From positions 441,501 through 505,500 of the forward strand of contig JAOTOL010001460.1 of the NCBI GenBank assembly GCA_034440575.1: a stretch of DNA of 64,000 nucleotides, read 5' to 3'. The stretch's first letter is position 1; each line of letters starts with the position of its first letter. Made by a program: the position numbers and the translations under genes. Under the pieces are notes generated by a model. The model was not told the origin of the DNA and searched no databases. It saw only the letters and a list, made by a program, of their open reading frames with translations. The DNA is from Imbricaverruca yamaguchii. Lineage: Eukaryota > Arthropoda > Thecostraca > Neoverrucidae. Shown here piece after piece: positions 13,630 to 59,335 of the stretch.

Positions 13630-13637
13630 CCCATTTC

Positions 13638-14648: not shown

Positions 14649-15295
14649 ACTTGCTAAACAACCGACAAAAAAGCTAACTATCATTCACTATAAATCGCTA
14701 CCTCCTATACTGTCAGTTAAATATCTGAGTGCCTCAAGAAAAGCAGAAACTATTAAACAATTGTTTTTTTTTTGTTTTGTTTTCTTTTTAAATAAATTAA
14801 ATAACTAAACAAGATGTCTAATCTAATTGTTTTCCACACAAGTAGACAACTATATAAATATCCCTTTGATATCACTTATGGCTAGACAGAAAAATGAACA
14901 GTCACACAGCACTTATGAATACCCCCAACTTACTACTAGTTAAACTATCTTAAACTTCAACACCAAACACACTTGCTAAACAACCGACAAAAAAAGCTAA
15001 CTATCATTCACTATAAAGCGCTACCTCCTATACTGTCAGTTAAATATCTGAGTGCCTCAAGAAAAGCAGAAACTATTAAACAATTGTTTGTTTTTTTGTT
15101 TTGTTTTGTTTTTTTAAATAAATTAAATAACTAAACAAGATGTCTAATCTAATTGTCTTCCACACAAGTAGACAACTATATAAATATCCCTTTGATATCA
15201 CTTATGGTTAGACAGAAAAATGAACAGTCACACAGCACTTATGAATACCCCCAACTTACTACTAATTAAACTATCTTAAACTTCAACACCAAACA
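14649..15295 (-). repeat. Two tandem 5'UTR monomers of the LINE, about 322 bp each
   Basis: The segment beginning ACTTGCTAAACAACCGAC at 14649 is repeated nearly identically from 14971, so the unit is about 322 bp. It includes a poly-T/TG stretch and the string CAAGATGTCTAATCTAATTG in both copies. On the element's strand these sit upstream of ORF1. Duplicated 5' monomers are known promoter units in some LINEs; a promoter role here is inferred from position only. Confidence 0.85.
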
Positions 15296-15645
15296 CACTA
15301 TGCACACCAAAAAATAAATAAAGTATGTTAGGATAGTATGAATGTTGTCTAATGTACTTATCAAATCTACACACTTGTAATATCTCCTACTACAGAAATC
15401 GAAGAGTCGAGAACACGCCGAAGCCAAAGATGGCGTCCTGCGGCGTCGCTAGGTTAATATAGTATAGTTTGCGTGCTACGAAAATGCTTATAAGATAAAA
15501 CCTAATGAAATATAATAAGAGAAGTAATTGCTAAGCACCTATCCACAGCTTAGACTAGAGTACTGCCCTGTTCTGCAGCGACTTACCTGGAAACCTGGAG
15601 CTCGGGGGCGCGTCCTTCCACCTTGAGAGCTGGCGGCAAACAATC

Positions 15646-31214: not shown

Positions 31215-31358
31215 ATGGAGCGCATGGCGGTGCTCAGCTGCGCGGCGCTAGTGGCCTCACTGGCACTGCTGGCGCCGCACGTGACCACTCTGCACCTGAC
31301 GCTGCTGGCACTGCTGCTGCTGGGCTCGCTCTTCCTGACGGCCAGTCTCATCCTGGAA
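31215..31358 (+). CDS. SNX19: SNX19 exon 1: N-terminal membrane hairpin
   Basis: Starts at ATG 31215 and encodes two hydrophobic stretches, AVLSCAALVASLALLA and LTLLALLLLGSLFLTASLIL, with a short polar turn (PHVTT): an ER-type hairpin anchor, as in SNX13/14/19/25. The donor chosen is GAA|GTGAGG (phase 0), which joins exon 2 in frame. An alternative phase-0 donor, GCT|GTGAAG at 31398, would add RRFLDRAKWHHQGA. GC-rich and codon-like compared with its surroundings. An upstream exon cannot be excluded. Confidence 0.55.
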
Positions 31359-34300
31359 GTGAGGCGCTTCCTCGACCGTGCCAAATGGCATCATCAGGGG
31401 GCTGTGAAGGAGAATGACAGTGGCTGGGGCACAGCCATCCGGCTTGACTTTAGTCTTAAGGCTGGGTACAAAATTCGTAGCTATCTTTTATGTAGCCAAG
31501 TATGGCGGGTAACGATCATATTTTGGATATTATGTCAGTGTGTGGTGGATGTACCAACATGGCTAAAGCCCAAATAACTAACTAACTTTGTGGCTAATGT
31601 ATCAGTTCAGGCTAGTACTTTGTCATTAACAGTGAGTGTATCTGAGACATCGTAAATGTTGATTCTGAATATAGCCAATTATCGGTGCTCGTGCAGTTTA
31701 CCGCAGTGTGCAACTGGTGTCACTATATCTACCTCTGCAATAACACTGTCTGAAGTTCGTCACCATCTCTGTCGTAATGCTGTGCAGTGTTCCCTGACAC
31801 CCTTTCAGCCTTAACATTGTACAATATGCACCTATCATTCCCTCAGCTGTCGCGCTGCAGTATCCTGCCACCCTTCACACTATTGTGTGCTGGCAGCAGC
31901 TGCTGGCCATAACACTGTGCAAAAACATAATCCCGGCAACTGCTATTCAGAACACTTGTGTGCTGAGACAGCTGCTGGCTGTAACACTGCTGTGTGCTGG
32001 CAGTAGCTGCTGGCCGTAACACTGCGCTGTATCCTGGCAACTGCTATTTGGAACACTGCCATGTGCTGAGACAGCTGCTGGTTGTGGTACTGCGCTGTAT
32101 GCCGGCAGCAGCTGCTGGCCGTAACACTGCGCTGTATCCTGGCAATTGCTATTCGGAACACTGCCGTGTGCTGATACAACTGCTGGCGATAACATTACTG
32201 CATGCTGGCAACTGCTACTTGGAACACTGCCGTGTGCTGAGACAGCGGCTGACCGTAACACTGCGCTGTGTGCTAGCAACTGCTACTCGGAACACTGCCG
32301 TGTGCTGGGACAACTGTTGGCTGTAACACTGCACTGTGTGCTGAGACAGCTGCTGGCTGTAACACTGCGCTGTGTGCTGGCGACTGCTACTCGGAACACT
32401 ACCGTGTGCTGAGACAGCGGCTGGTCATAACACTGTGTTGTATGCTGGCAACTTCTATTCGAAACACTGCCGTGTGTTGAGACAGCGACTGGCCGTAACA
32501 CTGCGCTGTGTGCTGGCGACAGCTGCTGGCGGGCAGGCCGCTGGCGTCTGAACGGTGGCGCCACTACGTGGACGAGGCGCACCTGCTGCTGCACCATGCG
32601 CTGCCGGACCAGGTGCCGGCGCCGACGCCGGCACCGGCCGCGCCACCGCCGGAACCCGCCGGAGATGAGCTGCAGGCCGAGCTGATCGGTCTGGTGGGAG
32701 ATGTGGAGCGGCAGTACATTCTCAGCTGGTCAGTGGGCTGCACGGCGGTGACACAACGTCTCCAGACGTTGAGATCTGTAGACCCGGCCACGGGCTGTCC
32801 ACCCCACCGGGGTCCACGCGACGAGTTCCTATCCATTGCCTTCAGCGAAAAGGTTCAAAGGAAGCAGGTACTCTGTGACATTAAGACTTACATGGCCACA
32901 GACACCTAATATAATCCTGACTGGACATTCAGGTAGCAGAGTTCGGACTTCTTCTAGTCGACTTCTTTGAATATATAGCAACACTAGCAGCGTTTATTCA
33001 CTACCATTGACATCGCTTGGTCCTTTTTGGTAAACATATCAGTAGTTGCCATTCCTGCTATTTTATGCATGCCATAATTCCATTTTGAACATCAATTTCC
33101 TTGCTTGGACGTCTTGCTGAATACCTTCGACTAACAATTGCTTAGATGTCTTGCTAAATGCTCTCCACTATATGAAAAATGAATTGTGTGATAATATGCC
33201 TAGTTGCTGTGGTAACTGTCGTAAACTATTGGGCGCGTCAGCTGCGGGGCGATGATATACCTCTGATGGTGTGTGTCCGTGGTCAGTTAGTGCCTTACTG
33301 ACCTGGTAAAGGGGACATGCCCCTGGCACTGCAGATGACACCAGATCACGTAACCGTGTCTTGGATGTTTTGTGGGAGGTAGCTCGCTGACTCCGCGGTG
33401 GTGACAGGCAGTGGCTCTGTCGGCTGGGAGACGTTCCGTCATGTGGGTGGCCCTCGGGGGATGAGAGGAGGAGCGGTGGTGCTGATGGACGTCTGCCGAC
33501 AGGTACTCGGACGTTAGTGGCTCTGTGCTGGCTGAGAGAGGTGGCTCTCGGGGGATGAGAGGAGGAGCGGTGGTGCTGACGGACGTCTGCCGACAGGTAC
33601 TCGGACGTTAGTGGCTCTGTGCCGGCTGAGAGAGGTGACTCGGGGGATGAGAGGAGGAGCGGTGGTGCTGATGGACGTCTCCCGACAGATACTCGGACGT
33701 TAGTGGCTCTGTGCCGGCTGAGAGAGGTGATTCTCGGGGATGAGAGGAGGAGCGGTGATGCTGACGGACGTCTGCCGACAGATACTCGGACGTTAGTGGC
33801 TCTGTGCCGGCTGAGAGAGGTGACTCGGGGGATGAGAGGAGGAGCGGTGGTGCTGATGGACGTCTCCCGACAGATACTCGGACGTTAGTGGCTCTGTGCC
33901 GGCTGAGAGAGGTGATTCTCGGGGATGAGAGGAGGAGCGGTGATGCTGACGGACGTCTGCCGACAGATACTCGGACATTAGTGGCTCTGTGCCGGCTGAG
34001 AGAGGTGACTCTCGGGGGATGAGAGGAGGAGCGGTGATGCTGATGGACGTCCGCCGACAGATACTCGGACATTAGTGGCTCTGTGCCTGCTGAGAGAGGT
34101 GACTCTCGGGGGATGAGAGGAGGAGCGGTGATGCTGACGGACGTCTGCCGACAGATACTCGGACGTTAGTGGCTCTGTGCCGGCTGAGAGAGGTGATCTC
34201 GGGGGATGAGAGGAGGGGAGGAGTGGTGCTGATGGACGTCTCCCGACAGGTACTCGGACGTTAGTGGCTCTGTGCCGGCTGAGAGAGGTGACTCGGGGGA

Positions 34301-37300
34301 TGAGAGGAGGAGCGGTGGTGCTGATGGACGTCTCCCGACAGATACTCGGACGTTAGTGGCTCTGTGCCGGCTGAGAGAGGTGATTCTCGGGGGATGAGAG
34401 GAGGAGCGGTGATGCTGACGGACGTCTGCCGACAGGTACTCGGACGTTAGTGGCTCTGTGCCGGCTGAGAGAGGTGACTCGGGGGATGAGAGGAGGAGCG
34501 GTGATGCTGACGGACGTCTGCCGACAGGTACTCGGACGTTAGTGGCTCTGTGCCGGTTGAGAGAGGTGACTATCGGGGGATGAGAGGAGGAGCGGTGATG
34601 CTGACGGACGTCTGCCGACAGGTACTCGGACGTTAGTGGCTCTGTGCCGGCTGAGAGAGGTGACTCTCGGGGGATGAGAGGAGTGGTGATGCTGACGGAC
34701 GTCTGCCGACAGGTACTCGGACGTTAGTGGCTCTGTGCCGGCTGAGAGAGGTGACTCTCGGGGATGAGAGGAGGAGCGGTGATGCTGACGGACGTCTGCC
34801 GACAGGTACTCGGACGTTAGTGGCTCTGTGCCGGCTGAGAGAGGTGACTCTCGGGGGATGAGAGGAGGAGCGGTGATGCTGACGGACGTCTGCCGACAGG
34901 TACTCGGACGTTAGTGGCTCTGTGCCGGCTGAGAGAGGTGGCTCTCGGGGGATGAGAGGAGCGGTGATGCTGACGGACGTCTGCCGACAGGTACTCGGAC
35001 GTTAGTGGCTCTGTGCCGGCTGATAGAGGTGACTCTCGGGGATGAGAGGAGGAGCGGTGATGCTGACGGACGTCTGCCGACAGGTACTCGGACGTTAGTG
35101 GCTCTGTGCCGGCTGAGAGAGGTGACTCTCGGGGATGAGAGGAGGAGCGGTGATGCTGACGGACGTCTGCCGACAGGTACTCGGACGTCAGTCGGGAGAT
35201 GTCGTTCCCGCGCCGCGGCAAGTCGCTGCTGGACGAGGCTGTGTACGAGCTGGCGGGCCGGGCGGCGTCGCTGTGTCCGTGTCGACTGTCGCTGCGGCTG
35301 ACGCGGCTGGCGCATCTGCACCTGCGCCGCTGCCGGCGGACGGTAGCACGCGCCGGCTGCGGCCCGGCGGAGCCGCTCTACCGGCCACGCCACCCGGTCT
35401 GCCGCGGCGCCGTGTCCGAGTCGGCCTACCTGACGGCGGTGGCCGAGCGGCTGCTGCGCGAGCTGGTGCCACCGCGCGTCCGGCTGGCCGGTTCGCCAGA
35501 GCTGGGGCTGGCGCGCGTGCTGGCGTGCGCCGTGCTGCGCGCCCTGCTAGACCACGTCAGCCAGCCGGCCAACCTGTACCGCTGGCTGCTGGATGCGCTC
35601 GTCGAGACCCACTCGGTGACGGACTCGGCTCCACGCGCCGACACGGCAGAGGCGGCGGCGCGGACGCACCTGCCGCCGGCGGAGGTGCCGCAGCAGCCGG
35701 GCGATACCGCACCAAGGGTCAGTGTGACGGACCAGGCCAGCCAGACGCAGGAGGAGTTCATACTGTCGCCCGGCGTCGACGGCGGCGTCTCGCTGTCGCC
35801 GCCGTACTCCCTGAGGCGGCGGCTGGCCTCGCGCACCTCAGACACCGGCACACAGACCCGCCGTCGCCGCGAGCACCGCTCTGTGCAGGAGGGCATGTGC
35901 GGCGCACTCGCCATCTCCGCGGCGCCGGCCGCGCACCGCAGTGTTCCGATCGCCGCGTGCGGACCGTTCGCCAAGCTGTGGCGGCCGGCCGAGCGGGTGG
36001 GAGACGTGGTCGGTCGCAGTCGGTTCCCGTTCGGAGGTGACGACGTGGTGCAGGGCATCACCGAGCAGGAGTACCGCCGTCGGCTGGACGCCGAGGCCGA
36101 CCGGCTGCAGCGGGTCCGCGAGCGCGCGCGCCGCCGCCGCCGCCGGCTGCAGCACCGGCGCAGCAACAGTCTGGGCGACGTGAGCGGCGTGGAGCTGGCG
36201 CTGGAGCCGGCGCCGGCGGGCCGCGCCACACCGCCCGACGACGCCCTGCCGCCGTCGTACTCGGCCTGCGACCTGCAGTCACTCGGCAACTCGTCCGACG
36301 AGCACGGCCAGAAGCCGGCACTGACGCGCGAGGAGGCCGTCCAGCGGAACCCGCTCAATCGTGCCGACGAGGTGGAAGCCCGGGTGGATCCGGACCGGCC
36401 GGCGCCCGGCTGCCGCCGTCCGCCCGGTCCGACCGTGTCCGACACTGAGCGGGCGGCCTCTGTGTGGGATCCGACCGTCGACCGTCGGCTGTGTGGCACT
36501 ACGCTTGTCGCTGCCGACCGGCCGCCGGTCGGCCGGGTTATGTCGCGCAGCGCCAGCAGCGAGAGCATCCCGCACCGGGCGCGCGCCAAGCTGCAGAGCA
36601 TGCTGCAGTCGGCCACCCAGGGCATCGTCAAGAAGACGGCGGCGCCCGTGTGGGAGCGTGCCCGGCCCGCCCCCGTAGCGGCCCGCTGGTCGGCGCCGCT
36701 GCCGTCCATCGGGACCCCGCTGTCGGCCGACTCTGCCGAGGACGCGTTGGAACAGATCTACTCCCCCACTGGGCTGTCCGCGACGACCGCGGCGCTGTGC
36801 TTTCCCACCGCCGCTCCGTCCTCGCCCACCCCCTATCCCTCGTCTGCCGCGCCGGCGCCTCCTCAGATGGCCTCAGCTCTCCCTGAGATGACCGGGCCGG
36901 CACCTCAGACAGCCTCGGCTCTCGCTGAGGCGGTCGCGTCGGCACCCTCTCAGACAGCCTCGGCTCTCCCTGAGATGGCTGCGCCGGCGCCCCCTCAGAC
37001 AGTCTCAGCTCTTCCTGAGGCTGCTGCACCAGTGCTCTCTCAGACAGCTTCGTCTAACGCTGAGACGGCCGCGCTGGCGCCCTCTCAAACAGCCTCGGTT
37101 CTCCCTGAGGCGGCTGCGCCGGCACCCTCTCAAACAGCCTCGTATCTCGCTGAGACGACCGCGCCGGCGCCCGGCTCCGGCTCCTCCCTCAGCTCCCCCG
37201 AGTACGAGGAGTGCGGCGACTTCGCCGGCACCATCGCCAAGCTGCGGGCTGTGCTGGAGGGCCGCAGTCAGCCGACCAGCAGTCTGAGCAGCAGCACGGA

Positions 37301-40300
37301 CACGCCCAGCTACAGCAGCTGTCCGACGGCCGCGCCGCCGTTCATCGAGGACGACGCCGGCGCACGGGTCACGGTGGGTCCCGGGGTCAGGTAACAGAAG
37401 CGTGTCCAGGATTGGACATTTAGGTGGAAAACATCAGGCAACAGGAATATATATTTACATTCCATGTCAGATGTATATTCATTTCCTTGGCATCCTTTGT
37501 TGATCTGTGTCAGTGCACCTAAGAGATAAGTATATGATAAGAATTCACGCCTAGCATGAATATGATAAGAATTCACGCCTAGCATGCGTGAATTATCAAT
37601 ACCTTCAAGTATCACTCTTGTTTTTGAAGTGGTGCTGGTCTGTGCATAGGGCGAATCGTGCTGTGCAATTAGATGCAAGCCGAATATATGTCAGTGGACA
37701 GTTTAGCCTTCGACGGAAGAATTGGATGGGAAATTGAAAATGAATTTTTCAATTTCTCATCCAAGTTGAGTTGTTCATATTACGTTCGGTGTTTAGCGAT
37801 TGTTCTGACACATTAGAGCATGCTTCCGCCGAGGAAGCCCGCAAGTTTATGGCCGAAACATCAGATTGCTTAATAGGAATTTTTATTTGAGTTGCATATT
37901 AAAATTTGTCTGAGACTGTCGGATGTTTTACTTTGTCGAAATAGTAAAGAACGCGTTATTTTATATGAACCCCAAAGTGGTTTTGACGATCATCATTTTC
38001 AGTTTTCATTATCTGGCATGTTTTTTTGTAGTTCTGTTAACCTTGCATTGGGTTTCAGCATATTTTGCTCCAATTCTAGTAGCAATCAGTGCATCTTCCT
38101 TCACATTGCACCTGTAGTGAGGAAGCAGGAGGTAGTCATTGTTTTCCTCAGCTCAGTCGTCTCGATAATTGTTGATTCCCTGATTCCAACTTGCCAGAAT
38201 ATTTGGAGTATCCATAGACATGTATGGCACCATTGTGAGCGGGCAGCTGACTGCTGAGGCGGCCAACAGGTGGCAGCACCTGTGTCTGTCGGCGGAAGTG
38301 ACAGCATGCGGTCCGTGTTCGACGGCGTGCGACAGCGCCTCTTTAACCGAGACAACAACTCTGCCAGCTCCTCCGGCTCGCCGGGGCCGCGGTCACTCGA
38401 CAGCCTGGTGCACCGCGACTCGTCCACCTCGCTCCTCAGCAACAAGTCAGGTAGTGCGACTGCGCCGCAACTGCACCGCGTGACAATTAGACAACATGAC
38501 TATTGGAGTCGTGATCGTGTTTGTCTCGCGATGGTGTTTGTCTCGTGATGGTGTTCGTCTCGTGATGGTGTATGGGAAGCTATTCAAACAACATGGGGCT
38601 GATTGGAAAATTCGAGTGAGAGATGGTAATAGTGCGTCGGCAATATAAGATGCTATAAAATAGGCCAGCACACATTGGCGGGCTTAGAGGTAATTTTGAT
38701 GTGCTGGCATCAAATACATTTTCCTAGCTTCATCCCATGCATGTTTGTCATAGATGCTACACCGAAGTCCCTTAACAGTCATGCTCAAATTGTGCCCAGG
38801 CTTTGGGAAGTTAAATACGAAACATATTTCTACGAGCGTTGTATTGCGTGCTCAAAGTTATATCGGCTGGGGAGCACTCTCCGAGTCGTGGCCATGGGCA
38901 CGTGTGGTCGGCGGTGGAGTTCAAAACTCCCCGCCGTTTGACACCATCGGGGGTGGAATATGAGGATGTGTGTAAAATGGCGAGAGCTGGGTATGTAGGC
39001 AATGTCTTGTAGTGTCTGGAGAAAGTAATGTCTGGTAGTAGTGTCAGAGTAGCTACATGTTGGTATGCGTGCGACAGAACGTGAGATGGAGCTGGTTTCG
39101 TTCCCCGAGGAGATAATGGAGGCCGCCGAGCTGCCACTGGACGGTCGAATATTCGTCAACGTCATCATCAGCGGCACGGAAACGCAGCGCGAGCGAGGTG
39201 GCGGCGAATATACCCTGTACACGATACAGGTGAGTGCAACTCAGATACCCACTCTGCATAATGCAGGCGAGTGTACCTTAGTTGCCTTTGTACACAATAC
39301 AGGTGAGAGTGTACCTCAGGTACATCCTGCACACGATGCGGGTGAGTGTAGGTAACTCAGGCACGCCTGCACCATACACGCGATTACTATCTTCTCATTG
39401 GCCGCCGTACTGTTGATTCGTTCGGACAAATACTGTGTGGAGCATCGTGGTGACTGTATGGTTATGAACAGGGGTACGACGACATTACTGCTACATATAT
39501 CACTGCTATGTGGCATGACTGCTACGCGACATCGCCGCTGCATACTTTATTACTAAAGACATAGCTGATGTGCAGCATTACTGCTGCACGACATTGCTAC
39601 TGGATACTTTGCTGCTCTAGACGTGAGCATGGAGGATGTGTCATATATTGTAGTATGATGGTCTGTACCTGGCGGCCCATCACGTGTTCTGTCACACCCG
39701 TGTGTCATGTGTAAGAGTACAATGGTCTGTACTTGATGGCTCATTACATGGTCAGTCGCATGTCCAGCCACACCCCTGTGTCATGTGTTACAGTATGATG
39801 GTCTGTACCTGGCAGCTCGTGACATGGCCAGTCATATGCCCCCCCCTCCCCCACCCCCACCACATCTCTGTATCGTATGTTGCAGTACGATGGCCTGTAC
39901 CTGGCGGCCGCTGAGGGCGATGACCAGGACCCTGCCGAGACGTCGATGGTGCTTAAGACGAACGTGGTGCGCCGTCGTTTCCGGGAGTTCCTGAACCTGC
40001 ACTCACGGCTGGAGGCCAGCCCCGAGTACCGACACCTCATTAAAGGTACGAGGAGTGCCGCCACTTGGTCAAAGGTGCGGGGAGTACCGCAAGTTGGTCA
40101 GGGGTACGAAGGGTACTAATGTGCTGTTTTGTTGACATAATAGTCACTGAGCCAGAGACCAGAGTAGAAATTGGTTGGTTATCGGTCCTGATCTGACCAG
40201 GTTTTTAGAGGTTCCAACTCCCAGCCATGTCAAATCCACGTATGACTAATCAGTCCCACAGATCTTCTCATGAGTTGATGCGCCCTTAAGCCCAAATAAT

Positions 40301-52300: not shown

Positions 52301-55300
52301 TAGAAAATTTCACCCCTGGTTACTAGTAAGCACCATTGGCTCAACCATGGCAAAATGGTACCGGAGATATTTGCGGTTGTAAATGCGTTCTTCCCATAGA
52401 ATGTCCATGACCGTAGTGGTAAACATCAAAAATGCTGAAGAGATCTATCCGCCTCAACTTCAATGGTGGCGGAGCCCATGTCAAGCACATCACTAAAGGT
52501 ATAGATGACCCCATAGATGCGAAAATATGTCGGTAAATTAGGCGGCCGGTCAAAATTGGGCGGCTGGTTTCGTGTCCGGACGAACCGTCGATGGCGTGCG
52601 GCTGGTCATGCATTGGACCAGAACGTCGGCCGACCGCATTCTTCATGGTATTGGGTTGATGTATGCATGAGAAAGTTTATATTCATCAACCTGAATATAC
52701 TTGAACTTGAATGTCAACAATGCTACAATTAACTGATTACGCTGTGTGTGAAGGCCCGGTGTGACCGTGTCTCCTGTGTGTGGAGGTGTGGTGTGGTCGT
52801 GTCTCCTGTGTGTGGAGGTGTGGTGTGATCGTGTCTCCTGTGTGTGGAGGTGTGGTGTGACCGTGTCTGCTGTGTGTGGAGGTGTGGTGTGGCCGTGTCT
52901 CCTGTGTGTGTGGTGTGACCGTGTCTGCTGTGTGTGGAGGCGTGGTGTGACCGTGTTTCCTGTGTGTGGAGGTGTGGTGTGACCGTGTCTCCTTTTCCTG
53001 TGTGTGGAGGTGTGGTGTGACCGTGTCTCCGTTGTGTGTGGAGGTGTGGTGTGTCGTGTCTCCTGTGTGTGGAGGTGTGGTGTGACCGTGTCTCCTGTGT
53101 GTGGAGGTGTGGTGTGACCGTGTCTCCTGTGTGTGGAGGTGTGGTGTGACCGTGTCTGCTGTGTGTGGAGGCGTGGTGTGACCGTGTTTCCTGTGTGTGG
53201 AGGTGTGGTGTGACCGTGTCTCCTGTGTGTGGAGGTGTGATGTGGCCGTGTCTCCTGTGTGTGGAGGTGTGGTGTGATCGTGTCTGCTGTGTGTGGAGGT
53301 GTGGTGTGACCGTGTCTGCTGTGTGTGGAGGTGTGGTGTGACCGTGTTTCCTGTGTGTGGAGGTGTGGTGTGACCGTGTCTCCTGTGTGTGGAGGTGTGG
53401 TGTAGTCGTGTCTCCTGTGTGTGGAGGTGTGATGTGGCCGTGTCTCCTGTGTGTGGAGGTGTGTGTGCCTTTTGTGTGGTGTGACCGTGTCTCCTGTGTG
53501 TGGAGGTGTGGTGTGACCGTGTCTCCTGTGTGTGGAGGTGTGATGTGGCCGTGTCTCCTGTTTATTCGTGTTTCCTGTGTGTGGAGGTGTGGTGTGACCG
53601 TGTCTCCTGTGTGTGGAGGTGTGGTGTGGCCGTGTCTCCTGTGTGTGGAGGTGTGGTGTGACCGTGTCTCCTGTGTGTGGAGGTGTGGTGTGGCCGTGTC
53701 TCCTGTGTGTGGAGGTGTGATGTGACCGTGTCTCCTGTGTGTGGAGGTGTGGTGTGACCGTGTCTGCTGTGTGTGGAGGTGTGGTGTGACCGTGTCTCCT
53801 GTGTGTGGAGGTGTGATGTGACCGTGTTTCCTGTGTGTGGAGGTGTGGTGTGGTCGTGTCTCCTGTGTGTGGAGGTGTGATGTGGCCGTGTCCCCTGTGT
53901 GTGGAGGTGTGGTGTGACCGTGTTTCCTGTGTGTAGAGGTGTGGTGTGACCGTGTCCCCTGTGTGTGGAGGTGTGGTGTGGCCGTGTCCCCTGTGTGTGG
54001 AGGTGTGGTGTGACCGTGTCCCCTGTGTGTGGAGGTGTGGTGTGGCCGTGTCTCCTGTGTGTGGAGGTGTGGTGTGACCGTGTCTCCTGTGTGTGGAGGT
54101 GTGGTGTGACCGTGTTTCCTGTGTGTGGAGGTGTGGTGTGGTCGTGTCTCCTGTGTGTGGAGGTGTGATGTGGCCGTGTATCCTGTGTGTGGAGGTGTGG
54201 TGTGACCGTGTCTCCTGTGTGTGGAGGTGTGGTGTGACCGTGTCTGCTGTGTGTGGAGGTGTGGTGTGACCGTGTCTGCTGTGTGTGGAGGTGTGGTGTG
54301 ACCGTGTCTCCTGTGTGTGGAGGTGTGGTGTGACCGTGTTCCCTGTGTGTGGAGGTGTGGTGTGACCGTGTCTCCTGTGTGTGGAGGTGTGATGTGACCG
54401 TGTCTCCTGTGTGTGGAGGTGTGGTGTGACCTTATCTCCCATGTCCAGAGGTGCAGCAGTACGGGCGCCACCTGCCGCTGGCCTCTGCCGTACTGGACCT
54501 GTGTGTGGAGGTGTGGTGTGGTCGTGTCTCCTGTGTGTGGAGGTGTGGTGTGGTCGTGTCTCCTGTGTGTGGAGGTGTGGTGTGACCGTGTCTCCTGTGT
54601 GTGGAGGTGTGGTGTGACCGTGTCTCCTGTGTGTGGAGGTGTGGTGTGATCGTGTCTCCTGTGTGTGGAGGTGTGGTGTGACCGTGTCTCCTGTGTGTGG
54701 AGGTGTGGTGTGACCGTGTCTCCTGTGTGTGGAGGTGTGGTGTGACCGTGTTTCTGTGTGTGGAGGTGTGGTGTGGCCGTGTCTCCTGTGTGTGGAGGTG
54801 TGGTGTGACCGTGTCTCCTGTGTGTGGAGGTGTGGTGTGACCGTGTCTCCTGTGTGTGGAGGTGTGGTGTGGTCGTGTCTCCTGTGTGTGGAGGTGTGGT
54901 GTGGCCGTGTCTCCTGTGTGTGGAGGTGTGGTGTGACCGTGTCTCCTGTGTGTGGAGGTGTGGTGTGGCCGTGTCTCCTGTGTGTGGAGGTGTGGTGTGA
55001 CCGTGTCTCCTGTGTGTGGAGGTGTGGTGTGACCGTGTTTCCTGTGTGTGGAGGTGTGGTGTGGCCGTGTCTCCTGTGTGTGGAGGTGTGGTGTGACCGT
55101 ATCTCCCGTGTCCAGAGGTGCAGCAGTACGGGCGCCACCTGCCGCTGGCCTCTGCCGTCCTGGACCTGTGTGTGGAGGTGTGGTGTGGTCGTGTATCCTG
55201 TGTGTGGAGGTGTGGTGTGGTCGTGTCTCCTGTGTGTGGAGGTGTGGTGTGGTTGTGTTTCCTGTGTGTGAAGGTGTGGTGTGACCGTGTCTCCTGTGTG

Positions 55301-55635
55301 TGGAGGTGTGGTGTGACCGTATCTCCCGTGTCCAGAGGTGCAGCAGTACGGGCGCCACCTGCCGCTGGCCTCTGCCGTCCTGGACCTGTGTGTGGAGGCG
55401 CTCCGGCCCAGCCAACACTGGGCCGTCAGCTCCACTGCCGTCCGACTCACCAAGCTGCTATTCGGCAGACTCATAGAGAACAGTCTGCAGGTGAGATGCC
55501 GGCACACCATCTGACACAGGTGCACGAACACATATGCCCCGTCCGACAGGTACATTTCGTGACGCAGGCCTACGGATACACTGTTCCACACAACTACCCG
55601 GGCCTGACCAGTGGCGTAGGTAAAAATGAATTTGG

Positions 55636-55724
<89 letters not shown>

Positions 55725-58700
55725 AGAGATCAGATCTCACGAGCTTCGTTGCATCCTCTATGTCTTAGGTAAGATGATGATGCCATGAATAACTGTTATT
55801 TGTTGGGCGGAGTCCGGATATCATACGCAGCAAATTTGGAAATGAAATAATTTCTTCATCACACGAACACTTTTCTGAGTCGCGAATAAGCGGGGCGCGG
55901 AGGTTGGTTAGGTGCGTCTCGCGCATCAAAGAAGAGTCGAATTCAGTCGAATTGTTTGCATTTCGCGGTTATGTATGCGTTGCTCGATGCAGAGTAGAGC
56001 GCAGTGTATGTGCCTCGTGGACTTGGCGCAAGCACAGTTGTCGTTTCATGCATGGTCATAAATGTTTAGGGTTAGTTCCTTCCAGATGTGTGCGAGTAAT
56101 TTCATTTCCATTTAACTTTCATTCCTGTGTTTGGCTTTCATTTAGTTAATGCAAACCTGGAAACGTGCAGCAAGGTGGCTCATAATTGAATGTGCCATTT
56201 GTATGTGAGCGTGCATGAACCGGTCGTGATCTTGGTAGCTGGGCTTCTTTATGGCGACCTTTGACAGACTGATGCGTCGGCGCATTGCAGAGGTGGCACG
56301 GCCGCGGCCACCAACGGTGTGATAATTACGACGTCGGCGAAAAACCTGGGCGCAAAATGACCTTGGTGGTCGGTGCGTTCACAAACTCCAATTCATCATA
56401 ATGTACGAAAATAACCTATGATTTGTCCGACTCGAAAGGCGCGAGTCTGCGCGTCAACAGGTGTCCGTTTGATCAGGCCATAGCAGGTGAGCTAAGCAGC
56501 GTCGCCTCTGACGTTGCAGCGGACCCTGGATCAGCTGGTACGTCCGGCCGCCTTTGTCGACTACCTCCGTATGCTGAGGGAGGCGGCGTTCTCCGCCGAG
56601 CCGGAGACGGAGACGCCGCGCTCCGCTGGGGAGCTCCGGCCGGCTGTTGTCGCCGCCATCGTCGACCTCAGCGGTCAGTGCTGCAGTCGACCTCAGTGGT
56701 CAGTGGTCAGTGGTGCAGTCAACCTGGGCGGTCAGTGTTGTTGTCGGCCTGAGCGGTCAGTGTTGCAGTCCACCTGAGCAGTCAGTGTTGTAGTCGACCT
56801 GAGCGGTCATTGTTGTAGTCGACCTGAGCGGTCAGTGTTGCAATCGACCTGAGCGGTCAGTGTCGCAATCGACTTGAGCGGTCAGTGTTGTAGTCGACAT
56901 CAGGGTTCAGTGTTGCAGTTGACCTGAGCGGTCAGTGTTGCAATCGATCTCAGCGGTCAGTGTTGTAGTCCACCTGAGCGGTCATTGTTGCGCTGGTCAC
57001 ACGGTGTGACGTCATGCCGACCTCCGCCCACCACGTGACGCTCACTGTTAGTCGGTCGGCTGGTCACGTGATGCTCACTGGTGGTCGGTCGGCTGGTCAC
57101 GTGGCGCTCACCGTCAGTAAATCAGTCTGGCGGTTTCGTGATATGTCGCTGTGTACAATGTATACATGTTTGTGTGGTAATACATGCGAGCAATATCGTG
57201 TACTCTCCCAGTAGTGTCGTTCCATGAAAATGGCCGATATTGTGTGAGCTGGTAAATGTGCGCTGAATACCGCCCCCCCCCCGTTCGGTTGGGCCCATTG
57301 GAAGCATAGGGTGCTTCGGAACCTTTGGTCATCTTTTCTCATTTGTGTTTCGAAAAAATAGCTGGCGGTACTTCCAACAATCGTCAGTGATACTACCTTT
57401 TTCAATGCATTTTATATGTTGCAAGCTCCAAGTAGATACATATATGTGACAACTTAAAATGATGCTAGAGCAGCTATTGGTAGTGCTCGGATGTTCGTCG
57501 TGCTCGAGCAGTTTTGGTAGTGCCCGAACAGCTGTTGTTAGTGCTCGAACAACTATTGGTGGTGCTCCAGCAACTCTTCCTCACACATCGCTACCAAAGG
57601 CATACAGAGTGACGCTAGTGCACCTTCAGTGTCCCTTCATGTAGACTGGGAAGTGAACTTCAGTGACTGCCGATTTCACACTGCGTCACGGGTGGCATTG
57701 GTGCCTAGCATACGCTCTTGCACACTCGGCCATCCTGAAGATACACCAGTCAACTGATTGGATGGGTCCGACAGCGATCCAGGCTGTCAGCTGCTGGTCA
57801 GGCCGTGCTCAGTCTCACTCTCCGCTTGGTGGCTGGTTTCGGTGTGTCTGAGATCTGGTACCGTGTCATCTCGAACACCGCTTTGTGGCTGGGAGTAATG
57901 AGGGGAACAGTGATCTCGACTACCTCTTTAGCGAGGCACTACAGGGTGTGTACAGGGTCGTGCTGTTTTCGTCAGTTGTAGCTGTCACTGTTATCTCGTG
58001 TGGGTGACTAGTTGTCTGTTACCCTCTGTGTGTGACTGCCGTTGTGTATGTTGCCCTAAGTGTGTGACTGGACTATGTCCGTTGCCGTCCGCGTGCGATT
58101 GTATCTACTACCATCTGGATATAGCTGTGTCTGTTATCTTCTGTGTGTGAATGAGTTGTCTGCTACCCTCCGCGTGGCTGCCGTTTTGTATACTGCCTAA
58201 GTGTGTGACTGCAGCTGTGACCGTTACCCTCTGCGTGTAATTGTATCTGCTACCCTCCGTGTATGAATATGGCTGTCTGTAACCCTCTGCGTGACTAGAT
58301 GTGTGTTGTGTTGTGTACGACTGCAACTATGTTGTGTCTGTCGTACTATGTGCGGCTGTGTCTGCGCTGTTGCTCTCTTGTTTATTGTTTATTGGTTGGT
58401 CCACGACACACTTTATGCACATTCACGGCTAATGACGCCGCCCACACTGTTTCGCCGGTGGGCCGCGGGATTGGGAAATGTCCTGAGTGGCGCTAGAGTC
58501 GAACCCGGGACCTTTGGTACCCATAGCCCGACACCATAACCACTCGGCCATCCCCCCCCCCGCTGTTGCTCTCTGGGTACGACTGCATCTATAAATTGTG
58601 CGCTACATGACCGACGCAGTCGATGCGCCCCTAAATTCCAGTAACAAGGACTGCATCTATATGCTGTCTGCCCGGCTATGTGTCGCTGTGGCTGTGTGCT

Positions 58701-59079
58701 GTGTTGCCTCTGTGTGCTGTTATTTTCTGCTTCTGACTTCAGGTATGTCCTGTTTGCTCGGCTATGCGTCGTTGTGGATGTGTGCTGTGTGGCCCCTATG
58801 TGCTGTTATTTTATGTGTGTGACTGCAGCTATATGCTGTCTGTCCCGCTGTGTGTGTGGCTGTGTCGTGGCTGTGTGACCCCATGTGTGTGATTGTAATC
58901 GTATGCCGTGTGCCCCAGGTGCCGCGTCTGTGGTCCTGGGCCGACCCACCGTGGAGACGGCTGTGGGAGCTCTGGTGGACTCCCTACAGTCGGCCCGAGT
59001 CAACCGTGACCTGGCGCTGCAGCTGCTAGACTGCCTGCTGGTCGACCTGGTGCCCGACCTGGTGACTAGCCCCCTCTGA
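31215..59079 (+). CDS. SNX19: SNX19-like sorting nexin, 12-exon gene (whole span)
   Basis: Twelve exons with GT-AG introns and consistent phases give about 1,341 residues. Domain order: two hydrophobic N-terminal segments (about residues 4-45), PXA domain (about 85-260), a long Pro/Ala/Ser-rich disordered linker (about 260-905), PX domain (about 912-1040), a helical linker, and a nexin-C domain (about 1186-1335). There is no RGS domain between PXA and PX, which matches SNX19 rather than SNX13, SNX14 or SNX25. Known vertebrate SNX19 is anchored in the ER membrane by its N terminus and binds PI3P on endolysosomes through its PX domain, tethering the two. The same role is inferred here. The PX basic motif RRRFREF and the later RRTFLERYL arginine are present. 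Introns are crowded with tandem repeats copied from the exon edges. Exon 1 is the least certain. Confidence 0.85.
31600..31849. other. Intron 1, non-repetitive part
   Basis: Nothing recognised apart from a SINE-like 3' end at about 31560-31585 (AAGCCCAAATAACTAACTAA). Confidence 0.5.
31850..32522. repeat. Degenerate minisatellite built on the exon 2 acceptor
   Basis: Repeated blocks of GCTGCTGGC, cgtaacactgcgctgt, GTGCTGGCAACTGCTA and tcggaacactgccgtgtg in units of roughly 55-80 bp. The last block, gctgtgtgctggcgacag, is the acceptor of exon 2, and exon 2 opens with CTGCTGGCGGGC. The array therefore repeats the acceptor together with the first exon bases. Confidence 0.85.
32523..32728 (+). 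CDS. SNX19: SNX19 exon 2: start of PXA domain
   Basis: Acceptor gcgacag|CTGCTGG and donor CAGCTG|GTCAGT (phase 2). It encodes LLAGRPLASERWRHYVDEA, a Pro/Ala linker, then ELIGLVGDVERQYILSW. Joined to exon 3 this makes ..YILSWYSDVSRE, the diagnostic start of a PXA domain (family pattern of a bulky residue, I/V, xxWY). The phase-2 junction falls inside the conserved Trp codon, and exon 3 completes it correctly, which strongly supports both sites. Confidence 0.85.
32729..33459. other. Intron 2, non-repetitive part
   Basis: Nothing recognised here. The end (33360-33440) holds a diverged version of the following minisatellite (gtggtgacaggcagtggctctgtcgg). Confidence 0.5.
33460..35176. repeat. About 93-bp minisatellite carrying copies of the exon 3 acceptor
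   Basis: Nineteen occurrences of cGACAG(G/A)TACTCGGACG, at about 33500, 33595, 33681 and on to 35175, with a period of about 90-97 bp. The 19th occurrence is the real acceptor of exon 3 (cgacag|GTACTCGG at 35177). Each unit also has gatgagaggaggagcggt, gctgacggacgtctgcc, agtggctctgtgccgg and ctgagagaggtgact. Many copies are nearly identical, so it is recently amplified or homogenised. Confidence 0.95.
35177..37373 (+). CDS. SNX19: SNX19 exon 3: PXA domain and disordered linker
   Basis: 2,197-bp exon, acceptor phase 2, donor ACG|GTGGGT (phase 0). The first 140 residues are the rest of the PXA domain (EMSFPRRGKSLLDEAVYEL; AYLTAVAERLLRELVPP; ELGLARVLACAVLRALLDHV; NLYRWLLDALVE). The following roughly 590 residues are Arg/Pro/Ala/Ser rich with no fold visible, include likely phospho-sites (RRSNSLGD, SRSASSESIP) and end in an acidic stretch. 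Third positions are overwhelmingly G or C. A 48-bp coding tandem lies at 36853-37171. Antisense and alternative-frame open frames here (up to 427 codons) reflect the GC bias. The stop of the reading frame just beyond (TAA at 37392) is in the intron. Confidence 0.9.
36853..37171 (+). repeat. SNX19: In-frame coding minisatellite, about 48 bp (16 residues)
   Basis: About seven imperfect copies of a unit encoding variants of APSQTASALPEAAAPA. The third codon positions and a few residues vary, and the period stays divisible by three, so the frame is preserved. It lies in the disordered linker. Confidence 0.88.
37374..38269. other. Intron 3
   Basis: Contains a 22-bp direct duplication at about 37538-37584 (GATAAGAATTCACGCCTAGC twice), directly followed by the inverted gcgtgaattatc. 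No other element recognised. Confidence 0.55.
38270..38450 (+). CDS. SNX19: SNX19 exon 4: pre-PX linker
   Basis: Acceptor ccaacag|GTGGCAG (phase 0) and donor AAGTCAG|GTAGTG (phase 1). Encodes VAAPVSVGGSDSMRSVF, DGVRQRLFNRDNN and a Ser-rich tail (PRSLDSLVHRDSSTSLLSNK). A short amphipathic segment is followed by disorder. The phases join exon 3 and exon 5 exactly. Imperfect 17-bp repeats (tctcgtgatggtgttcg) follow at 38515-38575. Confidence 0.82.
38451..39077. other. Intron 4
   Basis: Three imperfect copies of a 17-bp string near 38515-38575. Otherwise nothing recognised. Confidence 0.5.
39078..39229 (+). CDS. SNX19: SNX19 exon 5: start of PX domain
   Basis: Acceptor gcgacag|AACGTG (phase 1) and donor ATACAG|GTGAGTG (phase 0). 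Encodes EREMELVSFPEEIMEAAE and then the first PX strands DGRIFVNVIISGTETQRE and EYTLYTIQ. PX domains begin with such an I.V.V....  strand pair. The donor is followed by three near copies of itself. Confidence 0.88.
39205..39356. repeat. Tandem copies of the exon 5 donor
   Basis: The real junction acgatacag|gtgagtg (39229/39230) is followed by cataatgcaggcgagtg (about 39257), cacaatacaggtgagag (about 39294) and cacgatgcgggtgagtg (about 39332). Spacing is about 35-39 bp. Each copy includes exon-like bases plus the donor; the first has lost the GT, but the last two keep gtgag. Confidence 0.8.
39640..39910. repeat. Tandem copies of the exon 6 acceptor and exon start
   Basis: TA(T/C)(G/A)ATGGTCTGTAC, preceded by an AG, occurs at 39653, 39717, 39794 and 39886. 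The last is the real exon 6. Each copy continues with ctgg.ggc.c..a, reproducing the first 25 or so exon bases, and is preceded by a tgtgt/catgtg segment. Intervals are about 64, 77 and 92 bp. Confidence 0.85.
39886..40045 (+). CDS. SNX19: SNX19 exon 6: PX core with phosphoinositide motif
   Basis: Acceptor gttgcag|TACGATGG (phase 0) and donor ATTAAAG|GTACGAG (phase 1). Encodes YDGLYLAAAEGDDQDP and VLKTNVVRRRFREFLNLH. The RRRFREF block is the PX signature that contacts the 3-phosphate of PI3P. Both edges of this exon are tandemly copied into the adjacent introns. Confidence 0.92.
40028..40117. repeat. 29-bp tandem copies of the exon 6 donor end
   Basis: Exon end GAGTACCGACACCTCATTAA followed by ag|gtacgag is followed at exactly 29-bp steps by GAGTGCCGCCACTTGGTCAA..ggtgcgg and GAGTACCGCAAGTTGGTCAG..ggtacg. 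Possible donor GTs are at 40046 (real), 40075 and 40104. Confidence 0.88.
40118..40320 (+). mobile_element. SINE-like dispersed repeat, copy 1
   Basis: Starts actaatgtgctg.tttgttg, includes GACCAGAGTAGAAATTGGTT and tatcggt.ctgatc.gacca, and ends GATGCGCCCTTAAGCCCAAA followed by (ATCA)-like repeats. The 5' and middle parts recur at 44.34 and 44.86 kb, and the 3' end recurs at about 1.14, 58.6 and 63.54 kb. No coding capacity; the source family is unknown. Confidence 0.75.
40321..40621. other. Intron 6, remainder
   Basis: No element recognised. A weak near-repeat precedes the acceptor of exon 7 (tatgaccgacacccgtcacctgtgacc). Confidence 0.45.
40622..40842 (+). CDS. SNX19: SNX19 exon 7: end of PX domain
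   Basis: Acceptor gctacag|GGATCAAG (phase 1) and donor AGACCAG|GTCGGT (phase 0). Encodes GIKEPNRWQTLPFNRLDS, then IVSRRTFLERYLCQLCE and QLKEFMAYETDGSIAF. The LPF..lDS segment and the RR.FLERYL helix are standard for the second half of a PX domain in SNX19-type proteins. The second phosphate-contact arginine is retained. Confidence 0.92.
41381..41440. repeat. Perfect 28-bp inverted repeat with 4-base loop
   Basis: Arms 41381-41408 and 41413-41440 are exact reverse complements (ATCTTTTATCTAAAAATGTA at the outer end), separated by caat. It lies within intron 7 and is unrelated to the nearby tandem repeats. Confidence 0.97.
41560..42248. repeat. Degenerate intron 7 minisatellites leading to the exon 8 acceptor
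   Basis: From about 41560 to 41990, loose copies of tatcagat/tcaggtgacctgtgacac at 30-40-bp spacing. From about 41990, blocks gtccccatcagctgacctgt, gacccgcctgctgacgcc, tcatgacctgtat and cgccattaggtgatctgtg recur with a period of about 100-120 bp in three copies. The last block, ctgacgcctgtccttgtgcag, is the polypyrimidine tract and acceptor of exon 8. The earlier copies end in ctctgtcatg instead of the AG. Confidence 0.82.
42249..42407 (+). CDS. SNX19: SNX19 exon 8: linker after PX
   Basis: Acceptor ttgtgcag|ATGTTC and donor GAACAG|GTATAT, both phase 0. Encodes MFAKTMSGVLKTIRTALPSF and a polar stretch (NHEPQRKNSDDGQPVSLGYK). The first part is an amphipathic helix. The donor edge is duplicated further into the intron at 42913-42950. 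Confidence 0.85.
42410..42890. repeat. 14-bp minisatellite, about 33 copies
   Basis: Near-perfect GACGACGAGAGTCT repeats start 8-9 bases after the exon 8 donor (gtatatactgacgacg). Sporadic variants (agaatct, agtatct, acaagag) occur. The long - strand open frame (SSSDSRRQTLVVRL type) is a product of it. Confidence 0.97.
42891..42995. repeat. Copy of the exon 8 3' end and donor
   Basis: GCACGTCATGTGC(A/G)GAAC followed by ga.gaacag|gta lies at 42918-42948 and matches exon 8 positions 42379-42410. The gta(ta)tacccca..gtatcgg segment flanks it twice. The copy keeps the GT. Confidence 0.87.
43200..44338. other. Intron 8, first part
   Basis: A GC-rich inverted repeat at 43270-43345 (cggtacggtacggggc and the complementary cggtaccgtaccgcc strings) and short agtttctgaga repeats at 43680-43760. 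Otherwise non-coding. Confidence 0.5.
44339..44930 (+). mobile_element. SINE-like repeat, copy 2, interrupted by a MITE
   Basis: 44339-44375 matches the start of the copy at 40118 (actaatgtgctg..tttgttgacataatag.cactgag), and 44857-44910 matches its continuation (gaccagagtagaaattggttgg.tatcggt). The MITE at 44376-44848 separates the two halves. Confidence 0.78.
44376..44848. mobile_element. hAT-type MITE, 473 bp, nested in a SINE-like repeat
   Basis: Flanked by the 8-bp direct repeat CCACTGAG (44368-44375 and 44849-44856). Begins CAGGGTTAAAATAAT and ends, read on the - strand, CAGTGATAAATTATT: imperfect terminal inverted repeats (11 of 15). An 8-bp target duplication with CAGNG ends is the hAT signature. 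There is no transposase frame inside, so it is non-autonomous. The interrupted host repeat resumes correctly after the second CCACTGAG. Confidence 0.85.
44931..46425. other. Intron 8, last part
   Basis: No repeat or family recognised. The open frames at 45457-45843 (+) and 45172-45441 (-) are without recognisable features. Confidence 0.4.
46426..46561 (+). CDS. SNX19: SNX19 exon 9: linker before nexin-C
   Basis: Acceptor gtccgccag|ATGTCC (phase 0) and donor GAAGATG|GTACAT (phase 1). Encodes MSPVEIRLKELIVEWDSL then a Ser/Asp-rich tail (CDSDVSSED). A helix followed by an acidic linker, codon-biased like the other exons. The phases join exons 8 and 10 exactly. Confidence 0.8.
46721..46892 (+). 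mobile_element. tRNA-derived SINE, copy 2
   Basis: GGGGATGGCCGAGTGGTTAAG A box, ggtaccaaaggtCCCGGGTTCGACACTAGC B box region, tail cccaataaacaaata. Flanked by the near-perfect 13-bp direct repeat AGCGTAT(A/G)CT(A/G)TC (upstream ending 46720; downstream from 46893). It lies in intron 9, sense orientation. Confidence 0.92.
46905..48685. other. Intron 9, first part
   Basis: A poly-G run at 47116-47129. At 47930-48210 a degenerate repeat of about 45 bp is seen, with cores cttacgtctcacagcc, atcctgctc and ctatgtcg. No gene recognised. Confidence 0.5.
48690..50965 (+). pseudogene. Decayed LINE with RT, RNase H and zinc-finger C terminus
   Basis: In order on the + strand, across several frames: VQNCGARGPWGNFIHNLLAE and NGVLQGSVR (RT block normally NGVPQGSVLS) at about 48780-48915; FVDN (from FVDD) at about 48990; RWRVLNGFFF and TVHFRRGRDCGDPP at about 49070-49160; a thumb region (FSFGVTFDFNLSYSENFNTL) at 49200-49260; an RNase H TDS block (HVIFTDSLRNLLAL) at about 50035-50075; LCRLRIEQT then a C..C..H-type finger at about 50520-50640; and a 3' tail of (ACTA)n at about 50944-50963. 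Typical of I-type LINEs. 5'-truncated, with many stops and frameshifts. Confidence 0.78.
51081..51548 (+). CDS. Unidentified 155-codon open frame in intron 9
   Basis: Uninterrupted frame between the LINE tail and the downstream repeats. From the internal Met at 51120 it begins with a hydrophobic stretch (MSVLITLFAVLHVFGVMLPA) that resembles a signal peptide, followed by a Cys/Trp-containing region and helical segments (YRAASVFLHIVLMRIRCWCL; EALDVLDMYETRSF; ALRDIWRSHVHKIVREISRN). Composition is not simple-repeat and is protein-like. I do not recognise the family. It is not in phase with the host exons and has no splice signals I trust. It may be a mobile-element protein or a nested gene. Confidence 0.35.
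   Translation: MCCPSPGVVRSANMSVLITLFAVLHVFGVMLPAHCPCPDTWWADVCGLHTLHDLVWQGYVHAAQFLPKPPEAYRAASVFLHIVLMRIRCWCLTASGDADEYVASMVVGEGAWTEALDVLDMYETRSFAVQKSHRVALRDIWRSHVHKIVREISRN
51549..52339. other. Intron 9, middle part
   Basis: No gene or repeat recognised. Confidence 0.4.
52340..52560 (-). pseudogene. Decayed protein-coding repeat, copy 2 (unrecognised family)
   Basis: The - strand encodes GSATIEVEADRSLQH and YGKNAFTTANISGTIL, matching the segment at 15764-16006 in order and spacing (SSATSTVEADRFSRY; LNGKNAFTTVNFPYTIL). Frame breaks are needed to read it. Confidence 0.5.
52745..55335. repeat. 32-bp minisatellite, about 75 copies, derived from exon 10
   Basis: The unit joins CTGTGTGTGGAGG (identical to exon 10 codons for L-C-V-E) to tgtggtgtgaccgtgtctc (nearly identical to the intron just upstream of the exon 10 acceptor, gtgtgaccgtatctcc). 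The array runs almost unbroken from 52745 to 55335. It includes two larger pieces, at about 54440-54505 and 55100-55170, that copy the exon 10 acceptor plus the exon through ctggacctgtgtgtgg. Three 32-bp units make 96 nt, so an open - strand frame of up to 982 codons (HTTPPHTGDT type) arises; this is not a gene. Confidence 0.95.
55336..55490 (+). CDS. SNX19: SNX19 exon 10: start of nexin-C domain
   Basis: Acceptor gtgtccag|AGGTGCAG (phase 1) and donor CTGCAG|GTGAGA (phase 0). Encodes VQQYGRHLPLASAVLDLCVE and STAVRLTKLLFGRLIENSLQ. This is the beginning of a nexin-C (sorting-nexin C-terminal) domain, normally ..LLdevf.L...gWlrrq...l..qlfg..i. The upstream intron carries two partial copies of this exon. 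Confidence 0.88.
55639..55720. repeat. (TA)n microsatellite, about 82 bp
   Basis: Uninterrupted alternating T/A inside intron 10. Confidence 0.98.
55721..56519. other. Intron 10
   Basis: No further repeat or gene recognised apart from the (TA)n tract before it. Confidence 0.45.
56520..56673 (+). CDS. SNX19: SNX19 exon 11: nexin-C core
   Basis: Acceptor cgttgcag|CGGACC (phase 0) and donor CTCAGCG|GTCAGT (phase 1). Encodes RTLDQLVRPAAFVDYLRMLR and ELRPAVVAAIVDLS. It corresponds to the second helical part of the nexin-C domain. The donor is immediately followed by a minisatellite made of copies of the same junction. Confidence 0.88.
56660..57000. repeat. About 25-bp minisatellite made of the exon 11 donor
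   Basis: The exon end GTCGACCTCAGCG|GTCAGTG is repeated about thirteen times with variants (gtcgacctgagcggtcagtg, caatcgacctgagcggtcag), joined by a ttgcag or ttgtag spacer. The gcg|gtcagt donor is kept in most copies. At 57015-57115 a further approximately 36-bp repeat (ggtcggctggtcacgtg) follows, and at 57470-57560 a roughly 26-bp one (gctcgaacagctattggtag). Confidence 0.92.
57120..58364. other. Intron 11, middle part
   Basis: From about 57960 to 58360 a degenerate repeat of 30-40 bp (gtgtgactgc.gctgt, ctgttaccctctg). No gene seen. Confidence 0.55.
58379..58560 (-). mobile_element. tRNA-derived SINE, copy 3, with perfect target duplication
   Basis: Flanked by the 14-bp direct repeat CGCTGTTGCTCTCT (58365-58378 and 58561-58574). 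On the - strand it starts GGGGATGGCCGAGTGGTTAT and carries the same box B region (CCCGGGTTCGACTCTAGC) and tail (aataaacaataaacaa). Recent insertion into intron 11. Confidence 0.95.
58640..58918. repeat. Degenerate repeat before the exon 12 acceptor
   Basis: gactgcatctatatgctgtc (about 58651), gactgcagctatatgctgtc (about 58822) and gattgtaatcgtatgccgtg (about 58891) are three copies. The last leads into the acceptor tgtgccccag of exon 12. The first two continue with cccggctatgtgtcgctgtgg and cccgctgtgtgtgtggctgtg, weakly like the start of exon 12. Confidence 0.65.
58919..59079 (+). CDS. SNX19: SNX19 exon 12: end of nexin-C and stop
   Basis: Acceptor tgccccag|GTGCCGCG (phase 1), stop TGA at 59077-59079. 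Encodes GAASVVLGRPTVETAVGALV, DSLQSARVNRDLALQLLDCL and LVDLVPDLVTSPL. The V.....LvDSLQ....NR.L..qLLD.ll..LvPdL pattern is the C-terminal end of SNX19/SNX13-type nexin-C domains. Confidence 0.9.
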
Positions 59080-59335
59080 AGTCACCGGCTACTTGTATGT
59101 CCGATCTCCCGCCTCTTGTAGGTCCGATCCCTGACCTCTTGTAGATCCTGTCCTCGGCCTCATACGAGGTCGCCGGCCACTGGTAGATCCTGTCCCCGGC
59201 CTCTTCGGAGGTCGCCGGCCACTGGCAGATCCTGTCCCCGGCCGCCTTTGAGGTCGCCGGCCACTGGTAGATCCTGTCCCCAGCCTCCTCTGAGGTCGCC
59301 GGCCACTGGTAGGTCCGGTCCCCAGTCTCCTCTGA
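59070..59335. repeat. About 42-bp minisatellite seeded at the stop codon
   Basis: Units contain CTCTGAGGTCGCCGGCCAC followed by tggtagatcctgtccccggc. The stop context CCTCTGAAGTCACCGGCTAC is itself a diverged first copy. About five copies lie within the presumed 3'UTR. Confidence 0.85.

Follow-up and report, generated by a model that had tools for sequence, protein, structure and literature searches.

Tandem repeats spanning exon edges of barnacle genes are probably products of unselective duplication in GC-rich DNA, clipped by selection on coding sequence

Tandem repeats that span exon edges occur in several genes of the barnacle Imbricaverruca yamaguchii, and we consider it likely that they arise where GC-rich DNA is duplicated in tandem unselectively, and that selection acting on coding sequence then determines which duplications survive. 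We analysed a sorting nexin gene, SNX19, that lies in a 64,000-nucleotide stretch of the assembly (the window), and compared it with genes that were not picked for repeats, giving five gene models including SNX19, on three contigs, with 76 coding edges. Fifty-base segments (50-mers) were aligned to flanking sequence, and a copy was counted when its score exceeded the 99.9% level of 3173 mismatched between-gene pairs. At this level copies were found for 14 of 76 edges, for 226 of 864 tests in intron interiors (either side searched) and for 0 of 76 exon interiors; at the 99% level the corresponding counts were 17/76, 253/864 and 3/76. Edges thus show no excess over the intron background, and exon interiors are nearly empty of copies.

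The gene in the window is, judged from its sequence, the SNX19 orthologue, with PXA, PX and Nexin_C in order and the SNX19 PX domain as its nearest solved relative. A sequence search of solved structures matched its PX region to the SNX19 PX structure 4p2i (E 8e-22), and 4p2i/4p2j was the sole solved relative of the gene product found by sequence. PX and Nexin_C score above their Pfam cut-offs, and the PXA match in exon 3 (E 3e-5) falls under its own. The product has four protein matches, one of them named (sorting nexin-19a of Alosa), and PXA, PX and Nexin_C are all present in three of the four. SNX19 is one locus in the assembly searched (767 Mb, 1430 contigs), with all eight protein matches lying within this gene on contig C1227.

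Exons are numbered as in the initial annotation and 11 are known (Table 1); exon 9 of that numbering found no support between 42407 and 55338. Exons 2 to 8 and 10 to 12 form a single open frame whose only stop is at the end. Exon 1 was added to the model from a coding-potential scan and the sequence, its junction with exon 2 being made by eye alone. Splice sites in all five gene models were placed by eye, and those of SNX19 with the repeats in sight.

Table 1. Exons and tandem arrays of the SNX19 gene; positions are those of the window.
Feature	Position	Strand	Basis
Exon 1, inferred start codon, hydrophobic N-terminus	31215..31358	+	coding-potential scan; phase-0 join to exon 2 by eye
Array over exon 2 acceptor, 34/104/172 bp units	31930..32530	+	TRF, edge alignment
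Exon 2	32523..32728	+	open-frame join
Tandem duplication (21 bp x 2) within exon 2, coding, period divisible by three	32619-32661		
Array over exon 3 acceptor, 93-94 bp x 18.8, 94% matches	33446..35192	+	TRF, edge alignment
Exon 3, PXA region	35177..37373	+	open-frame join, Pfam
Coding array in exon 3, 45 bp x 7.3, period divisible by three	36846-37172	+	
Exon 4, without significant junction repeat	38270..38450	+	edge alignment
Exon 5, PX domain starts here	39078..39229	+	
Exon 5 donor, three degenerate copies ~41 bp apart	39230..39370	+	read directly; missed by TRF
Exon 6 acceptor, three degenerate copies, period ~76 bp, including ~23 bp of exon 6	39640..39885	+	
Exon 6, PX domain	39886..40045	+	
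29-bp array, overlaps exon 6 donor by 4 bp	40042..40116	+	TRF; weak copy score 14
Exon 7	40622..40842	+	open-frame join
Array before exon 8, 29/86/101 bp units, ends 7 bp from acceptor, junction unspanned	41836..42241	+	
Exon 8	42249..42407	+	
Array and second copy of exon 8 end, after exon 8 donor	42415..42950	+	
14-bp x 33.5 array, begins 7 bp past exon 8 donor	42415-42883	+	TRF
Second copy of exon 8 end, downstream of 14-bp array	~42916-42947	+	
32-bp x 81 array ahead of exon 10	52742..55331	+	TRF
Exon 10, ahead of and into PXC / Nexin_C region	55338..55490	+	open-frame join, Pfam
Exon 11	56520..56673	+	
25-bp x 13 array over exon 11 donor	56661..56991	+	TRF, edge alignment
86-bp array, ends 24 bp ahead of exon 12 acceptor; junction copies not significant	58649..58894	+	
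Exon 12 and stop codon	58919..59079	+	
23/42-bp array, begins 5 bp beyond stop codon	59085..59336	+	TRF, edge alignment

TRF gave 72 rows in the window, and the initial annotation had placed repeats at ten edges of this gene. For each of 20 edges, one being the stop codon, a query of 30 exon and 20 flank bases was aligned with the flank of that edge and, as mismatched controls, with those of non-adjacent edges. In eleven cases the own flank scored above every one of the 17-18 controls, and in eight of these the margin was at least 5 points: the acceptors of exons 2, 3, 6 and 10, the donors of exons 5, 8 and 11, and the stop codon. The exon 6 donor, exon 7 donor and exon 8 acceptor exceeded the mismatched flanks by only 1-3 points. 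The exon 6 donor and exon 8 acceptor both scored 14, where the best mismatched flanks reached 11 and 12, and neither passed the 99% level of the larger control (3173 mismatched pairs); the exon 7 donor scored 14 against 13, with its copy about 1 kb distant. Eight of the ten proposed edges thus have clear copies of their own junction, but at the exon 6 donor and exon 8 acceptor the repeats abut the edge and the copies are weak. At the exon 7 acceptor the closest array ends 22 bp before the junction and no acceptor copies were found.

The copies differ in extent and in preservation from edge to edge. At the exon 2 acceptor there are 14 junction-spanning copies, nine with AG intact. The exon 3 acceptor copies include AG and, at the median, 15 bp of exon sequence, and AG is intact in 22/22 over the entire intron; at least 17 of them lie upstream of the true acceptor at a spacing of about 93 bp for nearly all, with 28-30 of 31 bases identical and ACAG intact in every one. 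One part of the exon 6 acceptor repeat is too decayed for TRF and was read from the sequence directly. The best copy of the exon 8 donor lies about 500 bp off, past the 14-bp array, and extends just 3 bases beyond the junction. Within 3 kb of exon 10 its start is repeated twice at full length with the junction included, and the 32-mer ahead of this exon looks like an internally deleted form of that unit. The exon 11 donor has six junction-spanning copies, five with GT intact, and the coding end of the gene is spanned by five copies, three of which keep the stop triplet.

We searched the genome with three of the units. All 22 matches of the doubled 14-bp unit (exact search), all 18 of the exon 3 unit and all 67 of the exon 10 unit (both at up to 2 mismatches) fell inside the SNX19 gene, so that these units appear private to the locus as far as a search that may miss simple or very common words can see. 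Some arrays are long and fairly homogeneous, as at exon 3, but we give almost no credence to the arrays being assembly artefacts: degenerate copies are common (outside the signal, mean identity is 0.69-0.89 at every edge with spanning copies except one) and differ from unit to unit, like structure recurs in genes on three contigs, and each of the five gene models has a single open frame through its fully delimited exons.

The comparison sample consisted of 304 kb of the SNX19 contig and two CCT genes from a family search, picked for compactness. Junction-spanning repeats were found outside SNX19 in a chitin deacetylase gene on the same contig and in the two CCT genes on two other contigs, each with its own units, and were sparser there. 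Edges over the 99.9% level numbered 8/21 in SNX19, 3/16 in the CCT7-like gene, 2/16 in chitin deacetylase, 1/18 in the CCT4-like gene and 0/5 in Pumilio, where one array lies 10 bp from a donor and no edge passed the alignment threshold. Over the five genes copies were found at 8/38 acceptors and 4/35 donors at this level, and the stop codon was repeated in two of three cases (SNX19 and the CCT7-like gene, not chitin deacetylase). Such repeats are not restricted to SNX19, in a small sample of five genes on three contigs. One CCT gene seems to be present on contigs C89 and C1012, perhaps as haplotypes or recent duplicates; between the two contigs the length difference is about 8.9 kb for one gap separating its exon matches and about 66, 49 and 125 bp for three others.

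The recurrence of repeats at exon edges had been read as a sign of duplication directed at splice junctions or exon edges, through R-loop, RNA-templated or nick repair, on the ground that random repeats would not be expected there. That expectation holds only against a null in which arrays are confined to introns: arrays touched 8/20 SNX19 edges where 0.41 were expected (no more than 3 in 5000), and 13/68 in the five genes where the expectation was 1.34. We rejected this null as proof of targeting because arrays are barred from exons, so that every boundary-spanning array seems exceptional. When random arrays were instead clipped at exons, overlapping them freely as long as at least 30 bp stayed in the intron, the 13/68 intron edges touched in the five genes compared with 10.5 expected (P 0.18). 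For SNX19 the clipped null gave 7/20 edges against 3.9 (P 0.03), a value that comes from a gene picked for the pattern, and for the other four genes 6/48 against 6.6 (P 0.72).

Copy rates point the same way and make targeting, in our judgement, decidedly improbable. Random 50-mers of the contig had copies in 323 of 1500 cases, and one-sided intron interiors, with targets facing away from the nearest exon, in 272 of 1013; edges exceed neither these nor the two-sided intron rate. The predicted enrichment at other genes was reversed, with non-SNX19 edges carrying fewer copies than intron interiors (6/55 vs 226/864, P 0.010), although within SNX19 itself the edges look richer (8/21) than intron interiors (133/462), at P 0.34. 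Nor is the duplication confined to splice junctions, as the repeated stop codons attest. The profile across the boundary is a gradual one: copies were found for 26/75 50-mers of the first intron bases, 14/76 with 30 exon bases, 3/76 for the outermost wholly exonic 50-mer and at most 1/76 deeper, with a similar shape at three other settings.

Moving into the intron, 34-37% of 50-mers had copies within the first 75 bases; the rate was down to 30% at 100 bp and to 18-22% over 200-400 bp, and stood at 8/31 and then 8/19 farther in. This proximal excess does speak for targeting. In a paired test of 73 edges, the copy rate was 35% in the first 75 intron bp vs 21% beyond 150 bp (23 edges higher, 13 lower, Wilcoxon P 0.0017), mostly owing to acceptors (45% near vs 24% far, P 0.0008) rather than donors (25% vs 17%, P 0.23); in the non-SNX19 genes the excess had P 0.018, with the CCT4-like gene in the opposite direction. 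Base composition, however, removes it. Copy rate was 3-8% in bins below 50% GC and 43-64% above, and GC was 0.542 near exons vs 0.500. A regression over 1957 intron positions, bootstrapped by edge, gave a near-exon term of 0.31 (-0.15 to 0.75), which became -0.21 with GC included (95% interval -0.95 to 0.43), so the exon-proximal excess vanishes once GC is allowed for. This correction could over-correct or mask a modest real effect because the arrays, GC-rich themselves, set the local GC.

The same association with GC underlies a rival account, in which GC-rich DNA near exons, or mid-introns diluted by transposons, would alone make the exon-proximal intron repeat-rich, exon selection having little part in shaping the arrays. 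It fits both the higher GC near exons and the dependence of copy rate on GC, and we regard it as unlikely but as deserving some weight; what it leaves unexplained is the complete lack of exon-interior copies at the 99.9% level and the periods of the arrays in exons. In all three TRF arrays wholly inside exons, a small number, the period is a multiple of three (21, 45 and 12); of the arrays without contact to known exons, 75 of 240 have such a period.

A function for the repeated junctions, for example in splicing regulation as decoys, is highly unlikely. At 14 splice edges, 62 of the 75 copies that span the junction still have the splice dinucleotide, which might suggest that copies are kept, but this fraction (0.83), taken from an alignment biased towards retention, is close to the 0.74 expected if the dinucleotide drifted as fast as the bases beside it. 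The copies also span every degree of decay, and intron interiors are just as repetitive. Equally, the retained dinucleotides give no sign that decoys are purged. With its 17 near-identical upstream copies, the true exon 3 acceptor offers a natural splicing experiment on how the exon-side site is chosen, if it is.

Ordinary GC-rich minisatellites have private units, divergent copies and tandem expansion. The barnacle arrays share these properties and the high GC, and differ in their high density: TRF arrays with a period of at least 7 make up 21.8% of the 304-kb stretch of the SNX19 contig, a figure for this one genome, and arrays cover 28% of the sampled introns.

Unselective duplication clipped by selection would account for these observations as follows. 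Minisatellites would arise and turn over throughout GC-rich barnacle sequence. A duplication crossing the end of a coding segment would be tolerated because one copy retains the coding sequence together with the true splice site or stop, the extra copy going to the intron or 3' flank, and splicing would presumably keep using the exon-side site. Duplications within coding sequence would be lost unless in frame. It is this selection on the coding side that would let repeats reach coding edges and a few tens of bases inward, each array with its own unit, while later slippage or unequal exchange may expand, trim and homogenise the units. Edges would look special because crossing duplications survive, whereas coding-internal ones must keep frame. 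The way in which the duplications themselves form, and the continued use of the exon-side splice site, are the parts that we infer.

The initial annotation knew of no described equivalent, yet the available text of two reports (PMC3087553, PMC3902484) describes tandem repeats spanning exon/intron boundaries in the amphioxus Adh3, globin and troponin C genes, named mirages, and likens those of PGBD5 to them. The amphioxus globins concerned are BflGb6 and BflGb9 (PMC3087553, PMC3902484). According to the same text both boundaries can be involved, regular splicing is seemingly undisturbed, the origin is unclear and the repeats are possible seeds of introns; transcript effects and allele length differences are also reported (PMC3087553, PMC3902484). 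The barnacle repeats resemble mirages in being minisatellite-like tandem copies of boundaries, at donors or acceptors, with locus-specific unit lengths in several genes, and in that AG or GT survives in many of the copies but is lost in others (PMC3087553, PMC3902484). Here too copies join exon and intron sequence of one junction, at either boundary, with partial retention of AG or GT. They differ in their host, a barnacle and not a cephalochordate, in affecting many edges of one gene at once, in including stop codons and in having been measured against the intron background. A boundary-crossing duplication that brings splice signals into the copy is also a feature of the system described in the available text of PMC4974935; unlike there, no gained intron was identified in the barnacle, where the copies sit in existing introns and the 3' flank.

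We class the barnacle repeats as mirages of a new lineage and offer a plain explanation for them. A structure known from amphioxus is thereby reported for a crustacean and, with a simple reason proposed for it, no special mechanism need be invoked for mirages. It is improbable, in our view, that barnacles have, besides general turnover, an exon-proximal and mainly acceptor-side hot zone of tandem duplication, independent of amphioxus mirages; if they did, two distant animal lineages would share a junction-directed duplication route and a possible seed of new introns.

Among the titles and starts of abstracts listed in a literature search, with subscription journals mostly outside it, there was no report of boundary-spanning repeats in barnacles, and a text search of the main text of two barnacle genome papers found no mention of tandem repeats or minisatellites (PMC8917513, PMC11331182). 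The available text on the P. pollicipes genome reports 3.2% repeats and the lack of a comprehensive barnacle library (PMC8917513). Tandem repeats are mentioned for the amphioxus huntingtin scaffolds, in the available text not at exon edges (PMC2206037). Dense junction copies of the kind described here matter for barnacle gene annotation.

Several other features were observed. The window contains a non-LTR retrotransposon on the minus strand (10627-14594) with an endonuclease and reverse transcriptase ORF of 1000 aa, and a separate ORF upstream of it has a GDSL-lipase-like domain; just 5' of the element TRF detected a 326-bp tandem duplication with 97% matches (14649-15299). Embedded in a 405-kb contig (C996:270910-272247) is a mitochondrial COX1 frame that reads open with the invertebrate mitochondrial code, either a recent nuclear insertion or an assembly join. 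It shares 97% identity with an entry of the barnacle Leucolepas longa and 91% with entries of Balanomorpha, Scalpellum and Lepas, which agrees with a thoracican barnacle and led us to reject amphioxus, first considered because of mirages, as the source. At 5771-6932 of the window TRF found a 16-bp array and, about 55 bp beyond its end, an array of its reverse complement, with units ATGTACGTAAGCGCAA and CGTACATTTGCGCTTA; repeats resembling these units, CGTACATTTGCG, also occur in one comparison sequence (L037).
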